Source: an uncultured Endomicrobiia bacterium (GTDB taxonomy: Bacteria > Elusimicrobiota > Endomicrobiia > Endomicrobiales > Endomicrobiaceae). From it: a DNA stretch of 44,090 nucleotides. The DNA lies in NCBI GenBank assembly GCA_905234925.1, contig CAJOJJ010000007.1, forward strand, positions 1-44,090, written 5' to 3'. The notes under the pieces were generated by a model, which saw only the letters and a program-made list of their open reading frames with translations, did not search any database and had not been told where the DNA came from. A program made the translations under genes and the position numbers. Positions 9,739 to 43,933 of this stretch are shown here, piece by piece (positions within the stretch are counted from its first letter, which is position 1; every line of letters starts with the position of its first letter).

Positions 9739-9760
9739 ATTTTTGTACAATAATAACATA

Positions 9761-9914
9761 TTCTTCGGGGAAGGTGCAATTCCTTACCGGCAGTGATGCT
9801 CAAAAAGAGCTAAGCCTGCGACTTCACTGAATGAAGTAAGTGAAATGAATCCGTGGGAATCGGATGCCGACGGTGAACGAAATGTTGTTTCGTGCAGTCC
9901 GGATGAGAGAAGAA
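9761..9914 (+). promoter_or_regulatory. FMN riboswitch (RFN element)
   Basis: The conserved FMN aptamer blocks are present: GGGGAAGGTGCAATTCC, CCGGCAGTGAT, GCCTGCGA, GAATCCGTGGGAATC, GATGCCGACGGTGA and AGTCCGGATGAGAGAAG. P1 is closed by TTCTTC (9761-9766) with GAAGAA (9909-9914). It sits directly before ribD and so should switch off the ribDEBAH operon when FMN is abundant. The variable helix near 9818-9845 is slightly extended. Confidence 0.96.
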
Positions 9915-9943
9915 ATCAAAGATTTGTTTTAATTTTTGTTTGC

Positions 9944-31393: not shown

Positions 31394-32101
31394 GTGAAAA
31401 CTATAGCAGATAATATAACTTTAATAAAGGAAAGGATTAACAAAGCAGCAAACGGCAGAGAAGTAAAACTGATTGCTGTTACTAAAACTTTTTCTGCTGA
31501 ATGCGTAAAAGAGGCATTGCTCTGTGAAATTGCTGACATTGCCGAAAGTAAAATACAGGAAGCTTTGCCAAAATTTGAAGTTCTTTCCGGCAAATTGCAG
31601 AATATAAAAAAACATTTTATAGGTCATTTGCAGTCAAATAAAGCAAAGAAGGCTGTTTTGAATTTTGATTTGATTCAGTCTTTGGACAGCATAGGTCTGG
31701 CTAAAGATATCAACAGACACGCTGCAGACATAAATAAAGTTCAACATTGCTTAATTGAATTGAAAGTTTCAAATGAAGAAACTAAGACAGGTGCTGACGA
31801 AGAAAAAGTTTCCGAGATTTATGAATATTGTAAAACAAATTGCAGAAATATTTTGATTGACGGAATAATGACTATAGCACCTTATTTTGACGATAAGGAG
31901 CAGGTTCGTCCTTATTTTAAGAAAGCTTTCAATGTTTTTACAAATTTGCAAAAAAAATATAAAGATACTAATTTTAAAATCTTATCCATGGGTATGTCGG
32001 ATGATTTTGAAATTGCTATACAAGAAGGAGCGAATATGGTTAGAGTAGGTACTGCCATATTCGGGGAGAGAATTTATGATAAGCAGGAAATTCTACGATA
32101 A
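31394..32101 (+). CDS. yggS: PLP homeostasis protein, YggS/PLPBP family
   Basis: PLPBP binds pyridoxal phosphate and buffers it, without known catalytic turnover. The 235-residue protein has the PLP-lysine motif LIAVTKTF near residue 28, HFIGHLQSNK, SNEETKTGADEE and the terminal GMSDDFEIAI and VRVGTAIFGER. The start is GTG 31394 with no Shine-Dalgarno and a -10 box 11 bp upstream. Its end overlaps proC by 26 bp, and yggS-proC-yggU is a widespread gene order. Confidence 0.93.
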   Translation: MKTIADNITLIKERINKAANGREVKLIAVTKTFSAECVKEALLCEIADIAESKIQEALPKFEVLSGKLQNIKKHFIGHLQSNKAKKAVLNFDLIQSLDSIGLAKDINRHAADINKVQHCLIELKVSNEETKTGADEEKVSEIYEYCKTNCRNILIDGIMTIAPYFDDKEQVRPYFKKAFNVFTNLQKKYKDTNFKILSMGMSDDFEIAIQEGANMVRVGTAIFGERIYDKQEILR

Positions 32102-32894
32102 AAAGGTTGTTTTTATCGGATCTGGAAACATGGCGGAAGCCATAATCTCGGGATTTGTAAAGTACGACATTGTAAAAAGAGCCAATATTGTTTGCAATGA
32201 TATTTCAACGGAAAGGCTTCAGGTAATATCGCAGAAGTATGCGGTATCCGTTCAACAGGATAAAGATACGGCGCTTGAAAATGCCGATATAGTTTTTTTG
32301 GCCATAAAGCCTCAGCAGTTTAAATCCGTTTTGGATGAGTATTCCAAACAGATTGCTAAGGCGAAAATTATTGTTACGATTGCTGCAGGAATAACGACGG
32401 ATTTTGTAGAAAGTAATACTTCTAAAAAAGCGGTAGTTATCCGTGTTATGCCCAATACACCTGCTCTTGTGGGCAAAGGTGCAATTGCGGTTTGCGGCGG
32501 CAAGAATGCTTCTCAGGAAGTAATTAACGATATAGCCGATTTGTTCTCTGTTATAGGAAGAGTTGTGGTTGTTAAAGAAAAATTAATTAATACAATAACG
32601 GCAGTTTCCGGTTCCGGACCTGCGTACATATTTTATTTCTCGGAAGTTTTAAGACAGGCTGCCGAAAAACTTGGGCTTCCGGAAGATATTTCAAAAGATT
32701 TGGTTTACCAGACGATATACGGTTCGGGCAAAATGCTTATTGAGAGCGGGCTTGAAGATTTTACTTTAAGGAAAAATGTTACTTCTCCCGGGGGAACTAC
32801 GGAAAAAGCTATGGATGTTTTCTTGAAAAGTGATTTTTCCGATGTGGTTCTTTCTGCAGTGGAACATGCCAAAAAGAGAGCAGAGGAACTTTAA
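32076..32894 (+). CDS. proC: Pyrroline-5-carboxylate reductase
   Basis: ProC makes the last step of proline synthesis, reducing pyrroline-5-carboxylate with NAD(P)H. The 272-residue protein has the Rossmann motif VFIGSGNMAEAI, FLAIKPQ, RVMPNTPALVGKGA, VSGSGPAYIFYF and the late TSPGGTTEKAMDV. ATG 32076 lies within the yggS frame (26-bp overlap), so translation is probably coupled. An AGGAA is inside the overlap, but no better site is seen. Confidence 0.96.
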   Translation: MISRKFYDKKVVFIGSGNMAEAIISGFVKYDIVKRANIVCNDISTERLQVISQKYAVSVQQDKDTALENADIVFLAIKPQQFKSVLDEYSKQIAKAKIIVTIAAGITTDFVESNTSKKAVVIRVMPNTPALVGKGAIAVCGGKNASQEVINDIADLFSVIGRVVVVKEKLINTITAVSGSGPAYIFYFSEVLRQAAEKLGLPEDISKDLVYQTIYGSGKMLIESGLEDFTLRKNVTSPGGTTEKAMDVFLKSDFSDVVLSAVEHAKKRAEEL

Positions 32895-32939
32895 TAAAAT
32901 AACAAAACTTTAATATATAGTTTTAGCAGGAGGTTGTAA

Positions 32940-33203
32940 ATGATTATTAAAGTGCGGGTAATTCCCAATTCCAAGAGAAACGAGGTTGTCAGCAGAATAG
33001 GTTCTATTTTGAGAGTAAAAGTTGCCGCACCTGCTGTTGAGGGCAGAGCCAATGAGGAATTGTGTGATTATTTATCTGATTTCTTTGACGTGAAAAAATC
33101 TAATATTTTACTTAGAAAAGGTGAAAGAGGAAGAGAAAAAACTATAGAAATTACGGGAAAAACCGAAGAAGAACTGGATGAAGTTTTAAATACTATACCG
33201 TAA
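32940..33203 (+). CDS. yggU: DUF167 / YggU family protein
   Basis: A small 87-residue protein of the UPF0235 family: IKVRVIPNSKRNEV, VKVAAPAVEGRANEEL, LLRKGERGREKTIEI. The biochemical function is unknown, but it is commonly next to yggS and proC as here. AGGAGG precedes ATG 32940. The 45-bp gap to proC has no repeat module. Confidence 0.92.
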   Translation: MIIKVRVIPNSKRNEVVSRIGSILRVKVAAPAVEGRANEELCDYLSDFFDVKKSNILLRKGERGREKTIEITGKTEEELDEVLNTIP

Positions 33204-33261: not shown

Positions 33262-34305
33262 ATGAACAAAAAAATACCTGAAGCATTGTATTGGGAAAAC
33301 GGAACACTTTTTTTACTTAACCAAAATGAGCTTCCAAACAAAATTGTTTACAAAAAATGTAAAGCTTACACGGATGTTATTGACGCAGTAAAAAATAAAG
33401 TAATTGCAGGTGCTGCCGCAGTGTCGGTTGCCGTTGCGTACGGTGTGGTACTTGCAGGAATAAAATGTGCAAAATATCCTCCGATGACGAAAAGCAGTTT
33501 CATCAAAAAAGCCTGCGACGAGTTATCGAGAGTTTGGAATATTTCAATTTACCCAAAAAAAGCTATTGAAAAAATGATGGTTGTAGTCGATATGGCTGCA
33601 AAATTGAATCCTGAAAATTTTATAAATAAATTGGAAGAAACTGCAAAGGAAATTTATGAACAGGATATAGAAGCAAATATTGCAATGGCTGAATATGCTA
33701 CAAGACTGTTAAAGAAAGATTCCACGATAGTTACGCATGCAAATTCCGGAGCGCTTTCTTCTGCAGGTTTCGGTACGGCCATAGGAACAATAAAAACAGC
33801 TTTTAAAAGCGGTAAGGTAAAAAAGGTTCTTGTTGACGAAACGAGACCTTATTTTCAAGGTTCCAGACTTACTGCTTATGAACTTCAGCAGGAAAAAATT
33901 CCTTATATGCTTATGGCTGACAGTATGGCGGCTTTTATTATGAAAACGGAAAAAATTGATGCCGTTATCGTCGGTGCTGAAAAAGTTGCGTTAAACGGAG
34001 ATGTTGCCAATAATATAGGTACTTATGCTTTGTCAATATTTGCAAAATATCATAAAATTCCTTTCTATGTAATAGCACACACATCCGTTATAGATTTTGC
34101 TACCACATACGGAGTAAAAATAAAAGTGGAAGATTTACCCGGAGAAGATGTTTTAAAAGTCGGAGGAAAATTAATTTCCGTTAAAGATGCCGTTTCCAGA
34201 AATCCGGCTCTTGACGTTACGCCGGCATCAAATATTACAATGATTATCACGGAAAAAGGCGTATTTAAACCGAACAAAATCTCTACACTGAAGAAAAAGA
34301 AATAA
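33262..34305 (+). CDS. MtnA/eIF2B-alpha-like protein lacking catalytic residues
   Basis: The 347-residue protein has the methylthioribose-1-phosphate isomerase fold: YWENGTLFLLNQ, DETRPYFQGSRLTAYEL, MLMADSMAAFIM, NGDVANNIGTYALSIFAKYHKIPF. Yet the isomerase residues are gone. The cysteine of THCNxG is Ala160 (THANSG), the aspartate of GADRI is Glu240 (GAEKV), and VRGAPAIG reads VIAGAAAVS around residue 49. The SRPTA stretch is replaced too. So the methionine-salvage reaction is doubtful; a sugar-phosphate-binding or altered-activity paralogue is more likely. No other salvage gene is nearby. AAGG upstream of ATG is weak. A triloop palindrome begins at its stop codon. Confidence 0.8.
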   Translation: MNKKIPEALYWENGTLFLLNQNELPNKIVYKKCKAYTDVIDAVKNKVIAGAAAVSVAVAYGVVLAGIKCAKYPPMTKSSFIKKACDELSRVWNISIYPKKAIEKMMVVVDMAAKLNPENFINKLEETAKEIYEQDIEANIAMAEYATRLLKKDSTIVTHANSGALSSAGFGTAIGTIKTAFKSGKVKKVLVDETRPYFQGSRLTAYELQQEKIPYMLMADSMAAFIMKTEKIDAVIVGAEKVALNGDVANNIGTYALSIFAKYHKIPFYVIAHTSVIDFATTYGVKIKVEDLPGEDVLKVGGKLISVKDAVSRNPALDVTPASNITMIITEKGVFKPNKISTLKKKK

Positions 34306-34528
34306 AGTTGCTGAAAGCAATTTTATTTCAGCTGAGACAGAAATTGCTTTGCAATTTCTTAGCTGAGCCGGGTACTTTGTACCTTCAGCTTAGAGCTGAG
34401 AAGTTTGTTGTGAAAATTGCTAAGCAATTTTTGTTTATTATCAGATTTTTCGCAGAGCGAAAAATACCAAAAACCTATCGGCTTATCAGCTTTTCAGCTG
34501 TTCAGCTAAAAAATACGGAGTATTTTTT
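34304..34528 (+). repeat. Cluster of six triloop micro-palindromes before ileS
   Basis: Arms around exactly three bases: AAAGTTGCT/AGCAATTTT around GAA (34304-34324, one wobble). GAAATTGC/GCAATTTC around TTT (34340-34358). GGTAC/GTACC around TTT (34371-34383, nested in AGCTGA/TCAGCT). AAAATTGC/GCAATTTT around TAA (34413-34431). ATTTTTCGC/GCGAAAAAT around AGA (34445-34465). AAAAAATAC/GTATTTTTT around GGA (34508-34528). CAGCT words lie between them (34328-34400, 34478-34507). The open frame at 34308-34583 is composed of these repeats and is not a gene. Confidence 0.85.
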
Positions 34529-37303
34529 ATGGAAAATGATTATTCAAAAACAGTTAATTTACCGAAAACCGATTTTCAAATGAAAGCTAATTTGGCTCAG
34601 AGAGAACCGGACTTTTTAAAAGAATTATATGATGCCGAAATCTATGAAAAGATGAGAGCAAAAAATAAGGGGAAGAAAAAGTTTATTCTTCACGATGGTC
34701 CTCCTTATGCCAACGGCGAAATGCACATCGGACATGCTTTAAATAAAATTTTAAAAGATTTTATTTTGAAGTATAAAAATATGAAAGGTTTTGATACTCC
34801 TTACACTCCCGGATGGGATTGTCACGGGCTGCCTATAGAAACTCAGTGTTTAAAAGAATTAAAAACCGATAAACATAAAGTGGATAAAGCAGTTTTCAGG
34901 AAACAGGCAAGCGACTTTGCCAAGAGATTTGTTTCCATACAGAGAGAGGGCTTTAAAAGGCTGGGAGTTTTTGCCGACTGGGAAAAACCGTATCTTACGC
35001 TTGATCCCAAATATGAAGCTTCTATAGTAAAAGTTTTCGGTGAACTTGTAGAAAAAAATTATTTGTTCAGAAAGAAAAAACCCGTTTATTGGTGTTCTTC
35101 GTGCGAAACAGCTCTTGCCGATGCTGAAGTTGAATATGCGGATGTTTCATCGGATTCTATATTTGTAAAATTTCAAATAACGGAATTATCGGAAACTTTG
35201 AAAAGTAAAGCTGATTTATTGAAAGATTATTCGGTTCTTATTTGGACCACTACCCCTTGGACACTTCCGTCCAACGTGGCATTGGCATTTTCGCCGATAG
35301 CAAAATATGTTGCAGCCGAATATATTCTCAACGGTAAAGTTGAAAAAATTATCGTTGCAAGAGATTTGGCGGAAAATGTTAAGAATAAAATTTCAGCCGA
35401 AAGTTTTACCGTTAAAGCCGAATTTGACGGTAAAGATTTGGAATATATCAAATGTCAAAATCCTATAGTTGACAGAAAGTCTTTGGGCATACTTGCCGAT
35501 TATGTCAGTATGGAAGACGGTTCAGGTATCGTTCATATTGCTCCCGGACACGGACAGGAAGACTATCAGGCAGGGCTTGCGTACAAACTTGATATCATAT
35601 CTCCTTTAAATGACAGAGGTCAATTTACAAAAGAAGTTCCGGAATTTGAAGGAATAAATGTATTTAAAGCAAATCCATTAATAATTGAAAAACTTACCAA
35701 AGAAGGAAAACTTCTTGCAAGCATAAAAATAAATCACTCTTATCCTCACTGTTGGAGATGTAAGAAACCCGTTATTTTCAGAGCTACTCCTCAGTGGTTT
35801 ATGGGTGTGGATTTGAACGATTTAAGAAACAATCTTCTTAAAGAGATAAAAAATGTCAACTGGGTTCCAAAATACGGCGAGTCAAGAATTACCGGAATGA
35901 TACAGACCCGCCCGGATTGGTGTTTGAGCCGTCAGAGACTATGGGGAGTACCTCTTCCGATATTCTACTGCAAAGAATGCGGCGAACCTGTATTGGATAA
36001 AAAAATTATAGATAAAGTTGTTGAAGAATTTTCCGTACACGGTGCGGGAATTTGGTATGAAAAGCCCGTTGAAGAGTGGCTTAAAGGTTTTGATATAAAA
36101 TGTCCGAAATGCGGTAAGACGGAATTTAAAAAAGAAGAAGATATTCTTGATGTGTGGTTTGATTCCGGTGTATCAAGCGAAGCCGTATTATCGAGCGGGA
36201 ATTATGATTCTTTGGAATATCCTGCCGACTTATATTTGGAGGGAAGCGATCAGCACAGAGGATGGTTTCAAAGTTCGTTGCTGCCGTCGGTTGCCATAAA
36301 AGGAAAAGCTCCTTACAAAACGGTTCTTACGCACGGTTTTCTTGTCGACGGTCAAGGAAGAAAAATGTCAAAATCTTTAGGTAACGGAGTTGCCCCGTCT
36401 CAAATAATAAATAAGTACGGAGCTGATGTTTTAAGGCTTTGGGTTGCATCCTGCGACTATAGAGAAGATGTCAGAATTTCCGACGAGATTATTAAAGGGC
36501 ATACCGATACTTACAGAAAAATCAGAAATACTATCAGGTTTATACTTGGAAATGTCAGTGATTTGAAAGAAGAAGATATTGTAAAATTTCCCGATATGAA
36601 CGAGATAGATAAATATGCTTTGTTCTGTTTAAACGATGTGATTAAACAGGCAGAACTCGGCTTTGAAAATTATGAGTTTCATAAAACGGTTAAAATTATC
36701 AATGATTTCTGTACGGTATTTTTAAGCGGTTTTTATCTTGATGCGTTAAAAGATATTTTATATTGTGATAAAGTAAATTCCAAAGCAAGAAGAAGCGCAC
36801 AATCCGCAATGCTTGAAATAGGCACGGCTCTTATTGAAATAATGGCTCCTGTTTTGACTTTTACCATGCACGAAGCTTGGAAAGAAATTAAAAAAATCAG
36901 AAAAGGCCTGCCGGAATATGTTACTTTGGCTGATTTTCCTAAGATAAACAAAGAATATGTTTTAGAAAAAGATGTTCTTAATAAATGGGGCGGTCTTGTA
37001 AAAATAAAACAGTTGGTTTTGGCTGAAACCGAAAAACTCAGAAAAGATAAAATTATAGGTTCTAATTTGGAAGCTTGTCTGACCATTAAGTACGGTTCCG
37101 ATTATGCCTCAGCATTAAGTGATATCAACTTAGTAAATATCGTTATGGGCAGTTGGGATATTAAGTTGGAACAGTCTGACGTTAAAGATGAACTTTCCGT
37201 ATCTGTTGCCAAATCTTCATTCGAAAAGTGCGAAAGGTGCTGGAGACATGTTCACGACATATCTGACGGTTTATGTACAAGATGTACTGATGCAATAAAA
37301 TAA
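34529..37303 (+). CDS. ileS: Isoleucyl-tRNA synthetase
   Basis: IleRS charges tRNA-Ile and edits valine. The 924-residue enzyme has DGPPYANGEMHIGHALNK (HIGH motif, about residue 67), the editing domain with WTTTPWTLPSN, DWCLSRQRLWGVPLPIF, YLEGSDQHRGWFQSSLL, and KMSKS in GRKMSKSLGNG (about residue 613). The C-terminal zinc-binding tail has CERCW and CTRCTDA. The start codon directly follows a micro-palindrome whose loop holds the Shine-Dalgarno CGGAG (34516-34520). A strong terminator lies 12 bp past the stop. Confidence 0.98.
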   Translation: MENDYSKTVNLPKTDFQMKANLAQREPDFLKELYDAEIYEKMRAKNKGKKKFILHDGPPYANGEMHIGHALNKILKDFILKYKNMKGFDTPYTPGWDCHGLPIETQCLKELKTDKHKVDKAVFRKQASDFAKRFVSIQREGFKRLGVFADWEKPYLTLDPKYEASIVKVFGELVEKNYLFRKKKPVYWCSSCETALADAEVEYADVSSDSIFVKFQITELSETLKSKADLLKDYSVLIWTTTPWTLPSNVALAFSPIAKYVAAEYILNGKVEKIIVARDLAENVKNKISAESFTVKAEFDGKDLEYIKCQNPIVDRKSLGILADYVSMEDGSGIVHIAPGHGQEDYQAGLAYKLDIISPLNDRGQFTKEVPEFEGINVFKANPLIIEKLTKEGKLLASIKINHSYPHCWRCKKPVIFRATPQWFMGVDLNDLRNNLLKEIKNVNWVPKYGESRITGMIQTRPDWCLSRQRLWGVPLPIFYCKECGEPVLDKKIIDKVVEEFSVHGAGIWYEKPVEEWLKGFDIKCPKCGKTEFKKEEDILDVWFDSGVSSEAVLSSGNYDSLEYPADLYLEGSDQHRGWFQSSLLPSVAIKGKAPYKTVLTHGFLVDGQGRKMSKSLGNGVAPSQIINKYGADVLRLWVASCDYREDVRISDEIIKGHTDTYRKIRNTIRFILGNVSDLKEEDIVKFPDMNEIDKYALFCLNDVIKQAELGFENYEFHKTVKIINDFCTVFLSGFYLDALKDILYCDKVNSKARRSAQSAMLEIGTALIEIMAPVLTFTMHEAWKEIKKIRKGLPEYVTLADFPKINKEYVLEKDVLNKWGGLVKIKQLVLAETEKLRKDKIIGSNLEACLTIKYGSDYASALSDINLVNIVMGSWDIKLEQSDVKDELSVSVAKSSFEKCERCWRHVHDISDGLCTRCTDAIK

Positions 37304-38410: not shown

Positions 38411-39016
38411 ATGAGTGACTATTCTTATAAATATGCCGGTAACTTATACTTAAATATAACCAACCGTTGTATGATGGCTTGTCCTTATTGCATAAAACAT
38501 AAATGGGAAAATAAATTCAGAGGAAATTCTCTCAAACTTGACAGAGAACCGACTGTGAAAGAGGTAATCGACTCTATCGGAGATCCGTCTAAATACGGAG
38601 AGATAATTTTCTGCGGTTACGGCGATGCATTAATAAGACTTCCCGAAGTAATAGAAATTTCAAAATGGCTGAAAAGTAAAAATATACGTGTAAGAATCAA
38701 TACGGCAGGGCTTGCCAACAGATATTATAAAAAAAATATTCTTCCGGAATTAAAAGATTTGGTAGATGTTATTTCCATAAGCCTTAACGGAACAAATCCC
38801 AAAGAACATAATGAAATTAACAGACCTATGTTTAAAGAAGAATCTTTTGACGAAATTATAAATTTTGCTAAGACAGCAAAAGAATTTATTCCGACGGTTG
38901 TTATAACTGCTGTTGAACTTCCCGGACTTGATGTTTCAAAAGTTAAAGATATTGCCAAATCCGCAGGAGTTTTGTTCCGCTCCCGCCCATACCTCGACGA
39001 ATACGAAGAAAACTAG
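38411..39016 (+). CDS. Small radical SAM protein (TatD-linked type)
   Basis: The 201-residue protein has the radical SAM cluster motif NRCMMACPYC (CxxxCxxC, residues about 19-26) within LYLNITNRC, then EIIFCGYGDALIRL, RINTAGLAN and SISLNGTNPKEHNEINRP. Its length and N-terminus (YLNITNRC, followed by FCG) resemble the TatD-linked radical SAM family. The usual GEP motif at the SAM site is GDA here. No TatD gene is in the window. The substrate is unknown. Its start codon follows a GGA-triloop palindrome carrying the Shine-Dalgarno, and its stop codon abuts another (GCACGC/GCGTGC around GAA, 39016-39030). Confidence 0.82.
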   Translation: MSDYSYKYAGNLYLNITNRCMMACPYCIKHKWENKFRGNSLKLDREPTVKEVIDSIGDPSKYGEIIFCGYGDALIRLPEVIEISKWLKSKNIRVRINTAGLANRYYKKNILPELKDLVDVISISLNGTNPKEHNEINRPMFKEESFDEIINFAKTAKEFIPTVVITAVELPGLDVSKVKDIAKSAGVLFRSRPYLDEYEEN

Positions 39017-39180: not shown

Positions 39181-41361
39181 ATGAAGAACAATATCAATAA
39201 ACTTACCAATTTTCATATAGCCTTAATATTATTCTTCATTATTCTTATTTCTCACCTTGATATCATTCTATATTCTTCCGGACAATATTTTTCTTGGCAT
39301 AATTATGGGGATTTGAATTATTATGTAAATTTAAGAGTATTTACGTTCGGCAGTTTGTTGTCGGGAATATTTCCTTTTTGGACTACGAAGATTCTCTGCG
39401 GGGTGCCGGTTTTTGCAAATTCGGAGTCCGCAATTTTTTATCCTTTAAATCTTATATATTTTATTCTTCCTGTATCTAAAGCAATAAATTTTTCTTTTCT
39501 TATACACTTTTTTATTTTATCTTTTTCATCTTTTTTATGGATAAATAATAAGATAAGATATAAATTTATATCCCTTATTGTTGCAATAGTTGCGGCATTT
39601 TTATCAAGTACTTATTTACACGCATGTGCGGCACATCTTTCCAATGTAAATACTTGTTGTTGGTTTCCTCTTTTATTATATTTTTATGATAAAGCTTTCG
39701 AAGAAAAAACTTATCGTTATATTTTTCCTGTTTCGGTTATTCTTTGTCTGCAGATATTTGCAGGACATTGGCAGTATGTTTATTATACCGCATTTGTCTC
39801 TTTAATTTATGTCCTTGTTTTCTGCAGGAACAGAAATGTGCTTGTTGTAATTTTTTCTTCATATACGATAGCTTTATTTTTAGCTGCTATTCAGCTTGTA
39901 TCCAGTCTTGATTTTTATTTTGAAGGGGCAAGGCAGCTTGGAGAAGATAAAATAGGAACATCTTATTTTTCCGGGTTGGAGTATTTATTTACTTTACTTT
40001 TCCCGGGACATATTTTATCTATTGGCGAAAACGGTTCTTTTTGGGAGCCGACAATATATTTCGGAGCATTAAATTTTCTTATTGTTATTTTAGCAGTGAC
40101 TCACGCATACAACAAAAATATTTTAAAAATATGCGGAGTTATTTTATTTTTATATATTCTTACTTTTAAACCTTTTTCAGACATGGCAGATAAAATAATA
40201 CCGTTCTTTTCCTGGTTTAGAACTCCATGTAAAATTTTATTTTTTGCAAATGTTTTAATTCTTCCGATACTTGCTTACGGCATAAAATATGTTTTGTTAA
40301 AACGACTAAAAATAAGTAAGATTTTTGTTGTGTCCTGCCTTATCTTGTCGATATTTATAATTACTTTTTTTGCAGATATTTCGGACTTCCTTATAAAAAT
40401 TTTCCGTTATCAAAAAATGGAAATTTTTACCGGCAGTATTTTATACGGTTCGGTAATATTTTCGGGAATATTGATTTTTCTTCTTTCGGTGTTGTTATAT
40501 TTTAGAAAAAATATCGTGCCGAAAATTATTTTGATTTTTTTACTTGTTTTAGAACCTGTATTGATAATGAGAACTTTTATACACAAATATGATTATGAAA
40601 GCACTTTTAATTTCGGTTTTTATAAGAGAGAAAATTTTAATGAACAGACGAGATTTTTTTACAATATTAATTTGGATTTGATAACCGGAATAGAAAATTG
40701 TTCCGCATCATACCCCGATGCCGTAAAAAATTATGTTCTGTTTATGAAACATTTAAGACATAAGTTTAATATGAATAAAATTCTCGGACTTTTAAGATGC
40801 AGTTATATCGTCAACGGTACGGCAGAACATATTTATTCCATAGAAAAAACGGGAGTAGAGACTTTAAACAGACTTAATATACTTTATGACTATAAGTTTG
40901 AAACAGATAAAGAAAAAATTTATGATATTATGTCCGACGATAATTTTGATATATTTGATACGGTTGTTTTGGAAAAAGAGCCTCATTTCGGCGTGCATGG
41001 TAAAGGGCATGGAATGATAAATCCGGTATATTTTGACGAGACATCTATAATTTTTGAATGTAAGACTGACAAACCTGCAATTATTTTATATACGGATAAT
41101 TTTACGAAAGGGTGGCAGGCATACGAGCTTAATAATCCTGCACAAAAATATGAAGTTATATGTGCAGATTATATTTACAAAGCAATATCGGTTGATAAAG
41201 GTTATCACAGAATAAAAATAGAATACAAACCGTTTTCGTTTATTATCGGTAAATGGATTTCCGTTTTCTCTTGGATGATATTCTTAATCTTGTGGATTAT
41301 ATCATACAGAAGAAAAAAGCTAAAAAATATTTCACAAAATACAATAAATTTTATACAATAA
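39181..41361 (+). CDS. YfhO-like polytopic membrane protein
   Basis: A 726-residue protein with about a dozen membrane helices and a large C-terminal extracytoplasmic domain. Features shared with the YfhO / GT-C-like family are the N-terminal GDLNYYVN followed by FPFWTTKILCGVPVFAN, FYPLNLIYF, and QIFAGHWQYVYY. The terminal beta domain has NFTKGWQAYELN, IYKAISVDKGYHRIKIEY (as in the family's PGW, GEH and RYxP motifs). Such proteins are thought to glycosylate surface polymers with polyprenyl-linked sugars; activity here is unproven. No Shine-Dalgarno is visible before ATG 39181. Confidence 0.8.
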   Translation: MKNNINKLTNFHIALILFFIILISHLDIILYSSGQYFSWHNYGDLNYYVNLRVFTFGSLLSGIFPFWTTKILCGVPVFANSESAIFYPLNLIYFILPVSKAINFSFLIHFFILSFSSFLWINNKIRYKFISLIVAIVAAFLSSTYLHACAAHLSNVNTCCWFPLLLYFYDKAFEEKTYRYIFPVSVILCLQIFAGHWQYVYYTAFVSLIYVLVFCRNRNVLVVIFSSYTIALFLAAIQLVSSLDFYFEGARQLGEDKIGTSYFSGLEYLFTLLFPGHILSIGENGSFWEPTIYFGALNFLIVILAVTHAYNKNILKICGVILFLYILTFKPFSDMADKIIPFFSWFRTPCKILFFANVLILPILAYGIKYVLLKRLKISKIFVVSCLILSIFIITFFADISDFLIKIFRYQKMEIFTGSILYGSVIFSGILIFLLSVLLYFRKNIVPKIILIFLLVLEPVLIMRTFIHKYDYESTFNFGFYKRENFNEQTRFFYNINLDLITGIENCSASYPDAVKNYVLFMKHLRHKFNMNKILGLLRCSYIVNGTAEHIYSIEKTGVETLNRLNILYDYKFETDKEKIYDIMSDDNFDIFDTVVLEKEPHFGVHGKGHGMINPVYFDETSIIFECKTDKPAIILYTDNFTKGWQAYELNNPAQKYEVICADYIYKAISVDKGYHRIKIEYKPFSFIIGKWISVFSWMIFLILWIISYRRKKLKNISQNTINFIQ

Positions 41362-41403: not shown

Positions 41404-42192
41404 ATGGAAAGTATATTGAATATTATAGTTCCTTTAATGACAGGGCTGCTTTATTTTGCTATGGCGGCAGAGGTTATTCGTGTAAGTAAAATAAGGAAAT
41501 TTATGTTCGGCGAAATAGGCTATCAAAAGTTATTTGTGGCTTTTATCATGTTGGGTATATATTTTATTACCCGTCCTTTGCAGAATATTTTGGGACCACA
41601 CCCTATGCCTATGATAATAAATTCTCTAAGGCAGTTTTTTATTATGGGTATAATCGCTCCGTCGATATTTGTCGGTATTCTTCATTGGGTTCCGGGTGAA
41701 AGCGGTGCTCCCAAATCGACGGTTTTTGCATCTTACTGTATGGGAATGTTGATGGGAATAATTTTTGTACTTATTAACTCGATGGCTGTTGACGGTTCTA
41801 AAGTTATAGCAAATATAGGTTCTTTAAATTTATATGATGCTACGTGGTTTTCCGGAACAGATGTAAAGATTCAGTTGATATTGATACATCTTATTTGTCA
41901 GCTTGTTTCTCCGGTGGGCTTAATCCTTCTTGCAGCAGCATTTGTCCGTCACAGAAGGCATACATATATGCTCGGACATATTTATACGAATATGAAAACA
42001 AAATGGAGATATCTTGAAACAGGTTTAATAATTCTTCCCGGATCGTTTATTTTATCCGGACTTTTTGCAATGTTTGGAAGATATTATACTTATTTGTGGG
42101 TTATATATTTTGTCGGCTCTATCATTGCGGGAGGATTCGTTTTATATAGTATAAAGCTTGCTCCTCGAGAAAAACCCGCAGACCTGAAGTGA
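41404..42192 (+). CDS. Unknown seven-helix membrane protein
   Basis: I do not recognise the family. The 262-residue product shows about seven hydrophobic segments (near residues 5-25, 40-60, 77-97, 108-128, 155-178, 205-225, 230-250). Conserved-looking polar motifs are ITRPLQNILGPHPMP between helices 2 and 3, HWVPGESGAPKS, and VRHRRHTYMLGHIYTNMKTKW near the fifth helix. The topology resembles 7TM sensor modules, but no signalling domain follows. CGGAG (41394-41398), with a short TTTC/GAAA stem around GGA, precedes ATG 41404. It is 7 bp upstream of dnaX, so probably co-transcribed. Confidence 0.75.
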   Translation: MESILNIIVPLMTGLLYFAMAAEVIRVSKIRKFMFGEIGYQKLFVAFIMLGIYFITRPLQNILGPHPMPMIINSLRQFFIMGIIAPSIFVGILHWVPGESGAPKSTVFASYCMGMLMGIIFVLINSMAVDGSKVIANIGSLNLYDATWFSGTDVKIQLILIHLICQLVSPVGLILLAAAFVRHRRHTYMLGHIYTNMKTKWRYLETGLIILPGSFILSGLFAMFGRYYTYLWVIYFVGSIIAGGFVLYSIKLAPREKPADLK

Positions 42193-42199
42193 GGGAAAT

Positions 42200-43933
42200 A
42201 TGTCATACTTGGTTTTAGCTCGTAAGTTTCGTCCTGCAACGTTTGATGAAGTTATCGGTCAGGACCATATATCACAAACTTTAAAAAATGCAATAAAAGA
42301 AGATAAAGTTGCACATGCATATTTGTTCAGCGGTCCCAGAGGAACAGGTAAAACTACTATGGCAAGAATTTTTGCCAAAGCACTTAACTGTAAAAACGGT
42401 CCTACTCCGGAACCGTGCTGCAAATGTGAAAACTGTGTAGAAATTGCAAAGAATCAAAGTATTGATGTTATGGAAATTGATGCCGCATCAAACACGGGCG
42501 TTGACAATATCAGAGAAATCAGAGAAAATGTAAAATTCGGGGCAACATCTTCAAAATATAAAATTTATATCATAGACGAAGTTCACCAACTCTCGACAGG
42601 CGCTTTTAATGCGCTGCTTAAAACTTTGGAAGAGCCTCCCGAACATGTTATATTTATTTTGGCAACTACCGAACAGCATAAAGTGCCGATAACAATTCTT
42701 TCCAGATGTCAGAAATACAGATTCAGACTTTTATCCACCAACGAAATTGCACGTGCCATAAAAAATATTGCACAGAAAGATAATTTTGAAATTGAGGACG
42801 AGGCTTTGAAAATTATTATCAATGCTTCAGGCGGCTCGATGAGGGATGCCTTAAGTCTTTTGGATCAGGCAATTTCTGCAACAACGGGGAAAATAACCGA
42901 AGAATATATCAGAAATCTTATCGGACTTTTGCCGAAAGAAATTATTTCTTCGACGGTAGATTATATTGCAAAAAATGATGTTGATTCAATAATAAAGATG
43001 TGTAAAAGAGTTTATGAAGAAGGCTATAATGTTTTGCAGTTTGCGAAAGATTTAAGAGACCATTTAAGGCAACTTATGATATTCTCCGTAAATCCCGATA
43101 TAGCGGATGTATCTACCGAAGATAAAAAACTTTTTGACAGGCAGAAAACACTCTTTCCGATGTCTCGTTATATCAGAATGGGAAATTTGATTTCAAAAGG
43201 TTTGGAAGAAATGAAATGGCACGATCAGCCGAGAATTCTTTTGGAACTTTATCTTTTAAAAATGGCAGAACCTTATTATAACGTCGGAGAATTAATTGCT
43301 AAAATTAATGATATTGCCAAACACGGTGCAGCTTCTTTTCCTCAGACGACAGAGCAGCAGGAACAGAAAATTTCGCGAATTGAAAGTTTAAAAGATACTC
43401 CTGTTTCTGCGGATGACTATGTCTTGGAGCAGGAACAGGTTGAAGAGGAAAGTGTTGAAACTATGGCAGATGCCGTAGGTAATGATTTGATGGGGTTGTG
43501 GACGGAGATTGTTGCCGAATTTTCTAAAAAACATCCTATGTCCGCACAGAGTTTGAAAGAAGCCGTAGTAAAAGAAATAAATGCAAATACATTTCAAATA
43601 TCGGCTAAAAGTCCGATGTCATTGAATATGATAAAGCCCTATTTGGAAACGATACGGAAATTAATGACAAGAAAGAGCGGAAGAGAAATTAATGTTGCTT
43701 TAAAAATTGACGATATACAGGAAAAAGGCGGCATTGTTAAGGAAGATATAAAAATAGAAAATGACAATGCAGCAGTAAATTCAGAAAATTTTGTTGTTGT
43801 AGAAGATTTAAAAGAAACTGCAGCTACCGCAATACCTTCAAAAATAGAAAGTCTTGCTAAGAAGTTCGGCGGCTCTGCAGTTAAAAAAGAGAGAAGAGTA
43901 ACACGAGTCGTAGAAGAAACAGAAGAAGAGTAA
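42200..43933 (+). CDS. dnaX: DNA polymerase III gamma/tau subunit
   Basis: DnaX is the motor of the clamp loader. The 577-residue protein has ARKFRPATFDEVIGQDH, Walker A GPRGTGKTTMARI (about residue 46), the zinc cysteines CCKCENC preceded by a distant Cys, and Walker B YIIDEVHQLS. LATTEQHKVPITILSRCQ and sensor 2 GGSMRDALSLLDQ follow. The C-terminal 200 residues are a divergent, acidic tau-like region. No in-frame slippery heptamer of the Escherichia coli type is seen, so a separate gamma form is not evident. GAGGG lies 5 bp before ATG 42200. Confidence 0.96.
   Translation: MSYLVLARKFRPATFDEVIGQDHISQTLKNAIKEDKVAHAYLFSGPRGTGKTTMARIFAKALNCKNGPTPEPCCKCENCVEIAKNQSIDVMEIDAASNTGVDNIREIRENVKFGATSSKYKIYIIDEVHQLSTGAFNALLKTLEEPPEHVIFILATTEQHKVPITILSRCQKYRFRLLSTNEIARAIKNIAQKDNFEIEDEALKIIINASGGSMRDALSLLDQAISATTGKITEEYIRNLIGLLPKEIISSTVDYIAKNDVDSIIKMCKRVYEEGYNVLQFAKDLRDHLRQLMIFSVNPDIADVSTEDKKLFDRQKTLFPMSRYIRMGNLISKGLEEMKWHDQPRILLELYLLKMAEPYYNVGELIAKINDIAKHGAASFPQTTEQQEQKISRIESLKDTPVSADDYVLEQEQVEEESVETMADAVGNDLMGLWTEIVAEFSKKHPMSAQSLKEAVVKEINANTFQISAKSPMSLNMIKPYLETIRKLMTRKSGREINVALKIDDIQEKGGIVKEDIKIENDNAAVNSENFVVVEDLKETAATAIPSKIESLAKKFGGSAVKKERRVTRVVEETEEE

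Follow-up and report, generated by a model that had tools for sequence, protein, structure and literature searches.

The window (the whole analysed stretch of 44,090 nucleotides) carries on its forward strand an open reading frame with an ATG start at 33262..34305, the 347-aa product of which is, on profile, alignment and model evidence, probably a pseudoenzyme derived from MtnA. It is preceded by yggS, proC and a DUF167 gene (31394..33203, forward strand) and followed by ileS (34529..37303, forward strand). The order yggS-proC-DUF167-mtnA-ileS is common to the window and to relatives with a canonical mtnA, and the gene is therefore an orthologue of theirs and not a paralogue. The initial annotation of this DNA had pointed out that no methionine-salvage gene lies nearby. 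This is correct but uninformative, because canonical relatives likewise have mtnA by itself, flanked by DUF167 and ileS; what does carry information is the loss of the partner aldolase (see below). The 223-bp spacer between the mtnA homologue and ileS (34306-34528) is longer than in most canonical congeners. A T-box or other RNA element was considered as a cause and rejected, there being no Rfam match in the spacer. Elsewhere in the window, an FMN riboswitch at 9757-9918 precedes an open reading frame at 9940.

In the profile search, the product scored 319.9 bits against TIGR00512 (salvage_mtnA, cut-off 279) and 220 bits against PF01008, and it aligns end to end to the MtnA structures 1T9K and 2YRF. 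An AlphaFold2 model (pLDDT 92.1, pTM 0.90) gave a TM of 0.92 against the product complex of the Bacillus subtilis enzyme, 2YVK. By overall sequence and fold the protein is thus an MtnA, with the intact fold that had been claimed for it, and the prediction that databases would mislabel it mtnA was borne out by a score above the NCBI equivalog cut-off. A second, canonical mtnA, for which the initial annotation had proposed a search, was not found in the assembly of the window species (86% complete), where this is the single PF01008 protein; congener genomes have at most one match each. The closest named relative of the window species (G000) is Candidatus Ruminimicrobiellum caprinum (G004), in Endomicrobiaceae. 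Ruminimicrobiellum is a rumen genus with reduced genomes and a possible association with ciliates (PMC11257099). The independent metagenome-assembled genome of Ca. R. caprinum (locus L032), in which the corresponding protein (90% identity) has identical key residues, rules out an error of sequencing or assembly.

Both residues of the MtnA catalytic dyad, the Cys of THCNxG and the Asp of GADR, are replaced. The motif THCNAG reads THANSG in the window protein, with Ala160 (codon 33739..33741; this and the codons below are all on the forward strand) for the Cys, and GADRI reads GAEKV, with Glu240 (33979..33981) for the Asp; the two exchanges, already named in the initial annotation, can be seen both in the translation of the open reading frame and in the alignment columns. 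The numbers 160 and 240 are presumably also those of the catalytic Cys and Asp of B. subtilis MtnA, and the columns themselves were confirmed by alignment. Among about 97 aligned MtnA sequences, every row from outside the genus that covers the catalytic column has Cys, and the single further deviation in that column is a Ser in one congener. The scaffold motifs DETRPxxQGSRLTA and NGDVANNIGTY, reported earlier as retained, were both found, and the replacement of VRGAPAIG and SRPTA was likewise confirmed. VRGAPAIG has become IAGAAAVS (R49A, P52A, G55S), with Ala49 (33406..33408) in place of the homologue of Arg22 of PH0208, a ribose-1,5-bisphosphate isomerase. The SRPTAVNL region has become VWNISIYP (R92W and neighbours), with Trp92 (33535..33537) in place of the homologue of Arg65. 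A further change, K251N, was absent from the earlier list and turns ANK into ANN: Asn250, homologous to the sugar ligand Asn214, is retained, and Asn251 (the two codons at 34009..34014) replaces the homologue of Lys215, which binds both 1-phosphate and sugar. Three of the four 1-phosphate side chains are hence gone (R49A, R92W, K251N), and Gln199 (33856..33858), homologous to Gln166, is the only one left. The gene is a concrete case of misannotation, in which an equivalog-level mtnA call falls on a protein without the catalytic residues.

In PH0208 the 1-phosphate is bound by Arg22, Arg65, Gln166 and Lys215 and the sugar by Asp204, Asn214 and Lys215; the C135S mutant is inactive, C135A does not bind substrate, and isomerisation is stopped by mutating both catalytic residues (PMC5789824). 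According to the alignment, the window protein retains just Gln199 and Asn250 of these ligands. By analogy with the mutants of this homologue, isomerase activity was probably lost, as the initial annotation had claimed, since the catalytic pair and the larger part of the 1-phosphate site are gone. That annotation had also raised the possibility that the lost Cys or Asp is supplied from shifted positions, and this was ruled out by the ungapped alignment through the motifs and by the AlphaFold2 model. It is very unlikely that the protein is a working MtnA isomerase relying on other residues: a score above the equivalog cut-off and the retention of MTA phosphorylase (MTAP) would fit such an enzyme, but the dyad, three of the four 1-phosphate ligands and the downstream aldolase are lost, and no Cys or Asp has taken over from a shifted position.

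In a species tree built from seven concatenated proteins, the window species groups with G004, followed by G007; G005 and G009 form a pair, and the canonical species G001, G002, G003, G006, G008 and G010 group together. Ala160 is found in the window species and in G004, whose proteins have their substitutions in common. The MtnA of G007, which is cut by a contig end, has Gly in the Cys column and has lost the RGAPAIG and SRPTA motifs as well. In G009 (L122 / L039) the catalytic Cys160 is replaced by Ser and Pro52 by Gln, the remaining motifs are nearly canonical, and the genome is without the aldolase; this is possibly an early or alternative stage. Between DUF167 and ileS, its sister G005 has a decayed mtnA remnant with in-frame stops (L118:988-1533). 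There is no mtnA at the locus in G013, which belongs to another genus, and MtnA is missing from most of the family. The IleS of G013 (L124) shares about 90% identity with its Ruminimicrobiellum counterpart, and the ProC just 67%, which suggests transfer or a mixed bin. G001 and G002 possess the aldolase, but the contigs in question stop short of mtnA. G021 has a distant MtnA with the Cys intact, and in its genome, 83% complete, no aldolase was found.

These states bear on the idea that the canonical MtnA of Endomicrobiaceae already had a second, non-catalytic role, as a scaffold or in binding a partner, which is now the sole role under selection. The second lineage that lost both the Cys and the aldolase and still has an intact open reading frame (G009) argues for it, and human MtnA carries the alias Mediator of Rho Dependent Invasion in a PDB title. 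However, decay in the sister of G009, absence from G013 and the lack of MtnA in most of the family indicate that any such role is dispensable elsewhere, and a quarter of the conserved positions was rebuilt (see below), which is beyond what simple retention needs. We consider this explanation unlikely.

MTAP or a kinase, followed by the isomerase and a class II aldolase, makes up the DHAP shunt or 5-deoxyribose salvage (PMC6079011; PMC10986504). This aldolase, which cleaves the product of MtnA, occurs in every one of the nine genomes that have canonical mtnA orthologues (G003, G006, G008, G010, G016, G018, G020, G026 and G029) and in none of the six with an altered, decayed or missing MtnA at the locus (G000, G004, G005, G007, G009 and G013). 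Placed on the tree, this co-occurrence counts as about three independent events rather than fifteen. In G003 the aldolase sits between the TatD/radical-SAM gene and the 262-aa gene preceding dnaX. The same anchors can be seen in the window, namely a TatD-linked radical SAM protein (38411..39016) on the left and the 262-aa protein with dnaX (41404..43933) on the right, and between them lies a gene for a 726-aa protein (39181..41361; all on the forward strand) where G003 and G006 have a 3D-domain protein, the class II aldolase and a 179-aa protein. In the window, G007 and G009 the radical-SAM gene is followed by the 726-aa gene, with no aldolase, and a gap in the metagenome-assembled genomes was thereby ruled out as the cause of the absence. 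The site was rearranged more than once, because in G001 the 726-aa gene precedes the 262-aa gene and the aldolase is on a different contig. The 726-aa product is membrane-protein-like, without an NCBIfam match, and evolves fast (58% identity to G007, versus 80-90% for its neighbours).

MTAP (mtnP) is retained in the window species with 80% identity, so that production of the upstream metabolite may continue. No clear APH-family kinase for an MtnK route was found in the genomes examined, which is consistent with an MTAP-type shunt. The pathway context of an MtnA is thus incomplete in the window species, with MTAP kept and the downstream aldolase absent. A 590-codon open reading frame in G028, a member of the family (L181, G028:C13:22493-23518 and onward), appears from its sequence to fuse a distant but canonical MtnA to a class II aldolase domain, which connects the two enzymes directly. 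In canonical relatives, a divergent nucleoside-phosphorylase-like protein (L170:1835-2566) lies beside a radical-SAM protein; it was not found in G000, G004, G005, G007 or G009 and was possibly lost along with the shunt.

Neither the window species nor G004 has stops or frameshifts in the gene. Between these two closely related genomes, on which conservation was measured, dN/dS is 0.053 (95% CI 0.034-0.079) at a dS of 0.93, a value near 1 that makes the estimate error-prone, longer branches being saturated; pairs of canonical MtnA at similar distance gave 0.056 and 0.059. Out of 223 columns invariant in eight canonical relatives, 60 are changed in both genomes, and at 54 of these the two share the new residue. 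Across the 60 rebuilt codons pS is 0.60 and pN 0.05 (dN/dS 0.044), which indicates that the new residues themselves are held. A custom codon maximum-likelihood model estimated dN/dS as 0.045 on the background, 0.247 on the stem and 0.034 at the tips. Tips equal to 1 (2dlnL 299.8) and tips equal to stem (6.9) were rejected, as was, more modestly, stem equal to background (5.6, p about 0.02); tips equal to background (1.3) and stem equal to 1 (1.8) were not rejected. The stem branch of the MtnA protein is 0.39, ten times the 0.038 of the seven-gene concatenate, and the tips are about equal. The codon model points to a burst of change on the stem, followed by normal constraint. The gene is an intact open reading frame that stayed under purifying selection after the loss of catalytic residues, and the constraint at the rebuilt positions supports the new role that the initial annotation had proposed.

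The loss of the aldolase, together with decay in G005 and deletion in G013, could suggest a gene on its way out, on which selection relaxed after pathway loss and which is not broken yet. This is strongly disfavoured and highly improbable: dN/dS is 0.053 over a dS of about 0.9, tips equal to 1 is rejected with a 2dlnL of about 300, and both copies are free of stops and frameshifts. A pseudogene under relaxed selection was ruled out on the same grounds.

The tight hold on the rebuilt columns is also what one would expect of a new enzyme whose pocket was remodelled to take a different substrate, Glu240 serving as acid/base and the Cys being dispensed with. Glu240, Asn250 and Gln199 are still present, a Glu could in principle replace the Asp as base in a new reaction, and the burst on the stem is compatible with positive selection, given that a stem dN/dS of 1 was not rejected. 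However, the aldose-ketose isomerases of the family need the Cys, and with the 1-phosphate clamp gone there is no evident anchor for a phosphate. No new catalytic dyad can be made out in the sequence, and there is no new partner gene cluster. A new enzyme therefore seems improbable to us.

In order to place the protein among known systems, we compared it with three members of its superfamily. With MtnA (2YVK, 1T9K) it shares fold, length, most of the scaffold and the locus of the canonical orthologues in relatives; it differs in the replaced catalytic Cys and Asp, in three replaced 1-phosphate ligands and in the loss of the partner aldolase. With the ribose-1,5-bisphosphate isomerases (PH0208, Tk-R15Pi) it shares the fold, and its Ser162 corresponds to the 5-phosphate contact Ser137, a position held by Ala or Thr in canonical MtnA. 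However, Cys and Asp are missing, Gly163 stands in the place of Lys138 from the 5-phosphate site, and the score against TIGR00511 is 132.6 bits for a cut-off of 314.1, so that by score and dyad it does not belong to this type. In human eIF2B-alpha, which senses sugar phosphates without catalysis, the two catalytic columns hold Ala129 and Glu198; its sugar-ring contacts are Gly196, Ala129, Tyr130, Glu198 and Asn208, and its phosphate contacts are Arg132 and Lys234 (PMC8187479). We verified the columns of Ala129 and Glu198 against the PDB chain sequence. The exchange of Cys for Ala and of Asp for Glu in an intact fold is thus found at exactly the same columns in the window protein (Ala160, Glu240), which makes the eIF2B comparison in the initial annotation stronger than was claimed. 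Loss of 1-phosphate ligands is likewise common to eIF2B-alpha (EIF2B1; 7KMF, 7KMA) and the window protein, and four of the five ring contacts appear to be matched (Ala160, Gly238, Glu240 and Asn250). In contrast, the 6-phosphate ligands R132 and K234 fall on Gly163 and Val276 in an ungapped motif alignment, the Lys beside the Asn is lost, and the origin from a bacterial MtnA is independent. To our knowledge, bacteria have no eIF2B partner subunits. Binding of a sugar phosphate, which the initial annotation had put forward, is not supported, since the ligands of both the MtnA 1-phosphate and the eIF2B-alpha 6-phosphate are missing.

Taken together, the MtnA homologue is probably a non-enzyme with a new job. 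At a probability of about 0.62, we favour an MtnA-derived pseudoenzyme that was dismantled and rebuilt in place, is held by selection and most likely acts without catalysis as a binding partner. Its source would have been a single-copy mtnA, converted at its own locus. In the ancestry of this Ruminimicrobiellum clade, the DHAP shunt (the salvage route of MtnP, MtnA and aldolase) would have lost its aldolase, and the isomerase active site would have been taken apart (C160A, D240E, R49A, R92W, K251N), either order of these two losses fitting the data. Roughly one in four conserved positions would have been rebuilt in a burst, and the product would since have been kept under strong purifying selection, with the MtnA fold and probably the family dimer preserved. 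As assessed by alignment, the pocket appears rebuilt and less charged, with the sugar-ring end (Ala160, Gly238, Glu240, Asn250, as in eIF2B-alpha) putatively kept and the phosphate clamp not, which would suit a non-catalytic binding or scaffold protein that is convergent with eIF2B-alpha. Such a protein may bind another one, either gated by a ligand or in a purely structural role; it might conceivably bind a small sugar-like ligand and signal or scaffold.

Non-catalytic members of this superfamily, the eIF2B regulatory subunits, are already known. In the literature searched, we found no bacterial MtnA that had turned non-catalytic yet stayed under selection with the dyad exchange of eIF2B-alpha, nor a paper treating methionine salvage in Endomicrobia. 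It is a tentative and somewhat doubtful proposition that a bacterial MtnA repeated the eIF2B-alpha step, from salvage isomerase to non-catalytic metabolite-binding regulator by the identical dyad exchange, with the enzymatic ancestor and half-way (Cys to Ser), decayed and deleted forms in related species. The eIF2B regulatory subunits presumably derive from sugar-phosphate isomerases, through an ancient change whose steps are lost. A similar change inside a single bacterial genus, with relatives that still carry the enzyme at this locus, would make the steps readable and testable: the partner enzyme is lost, the catalytic residues are lost, the pocket is rebuilt and the protein is held.
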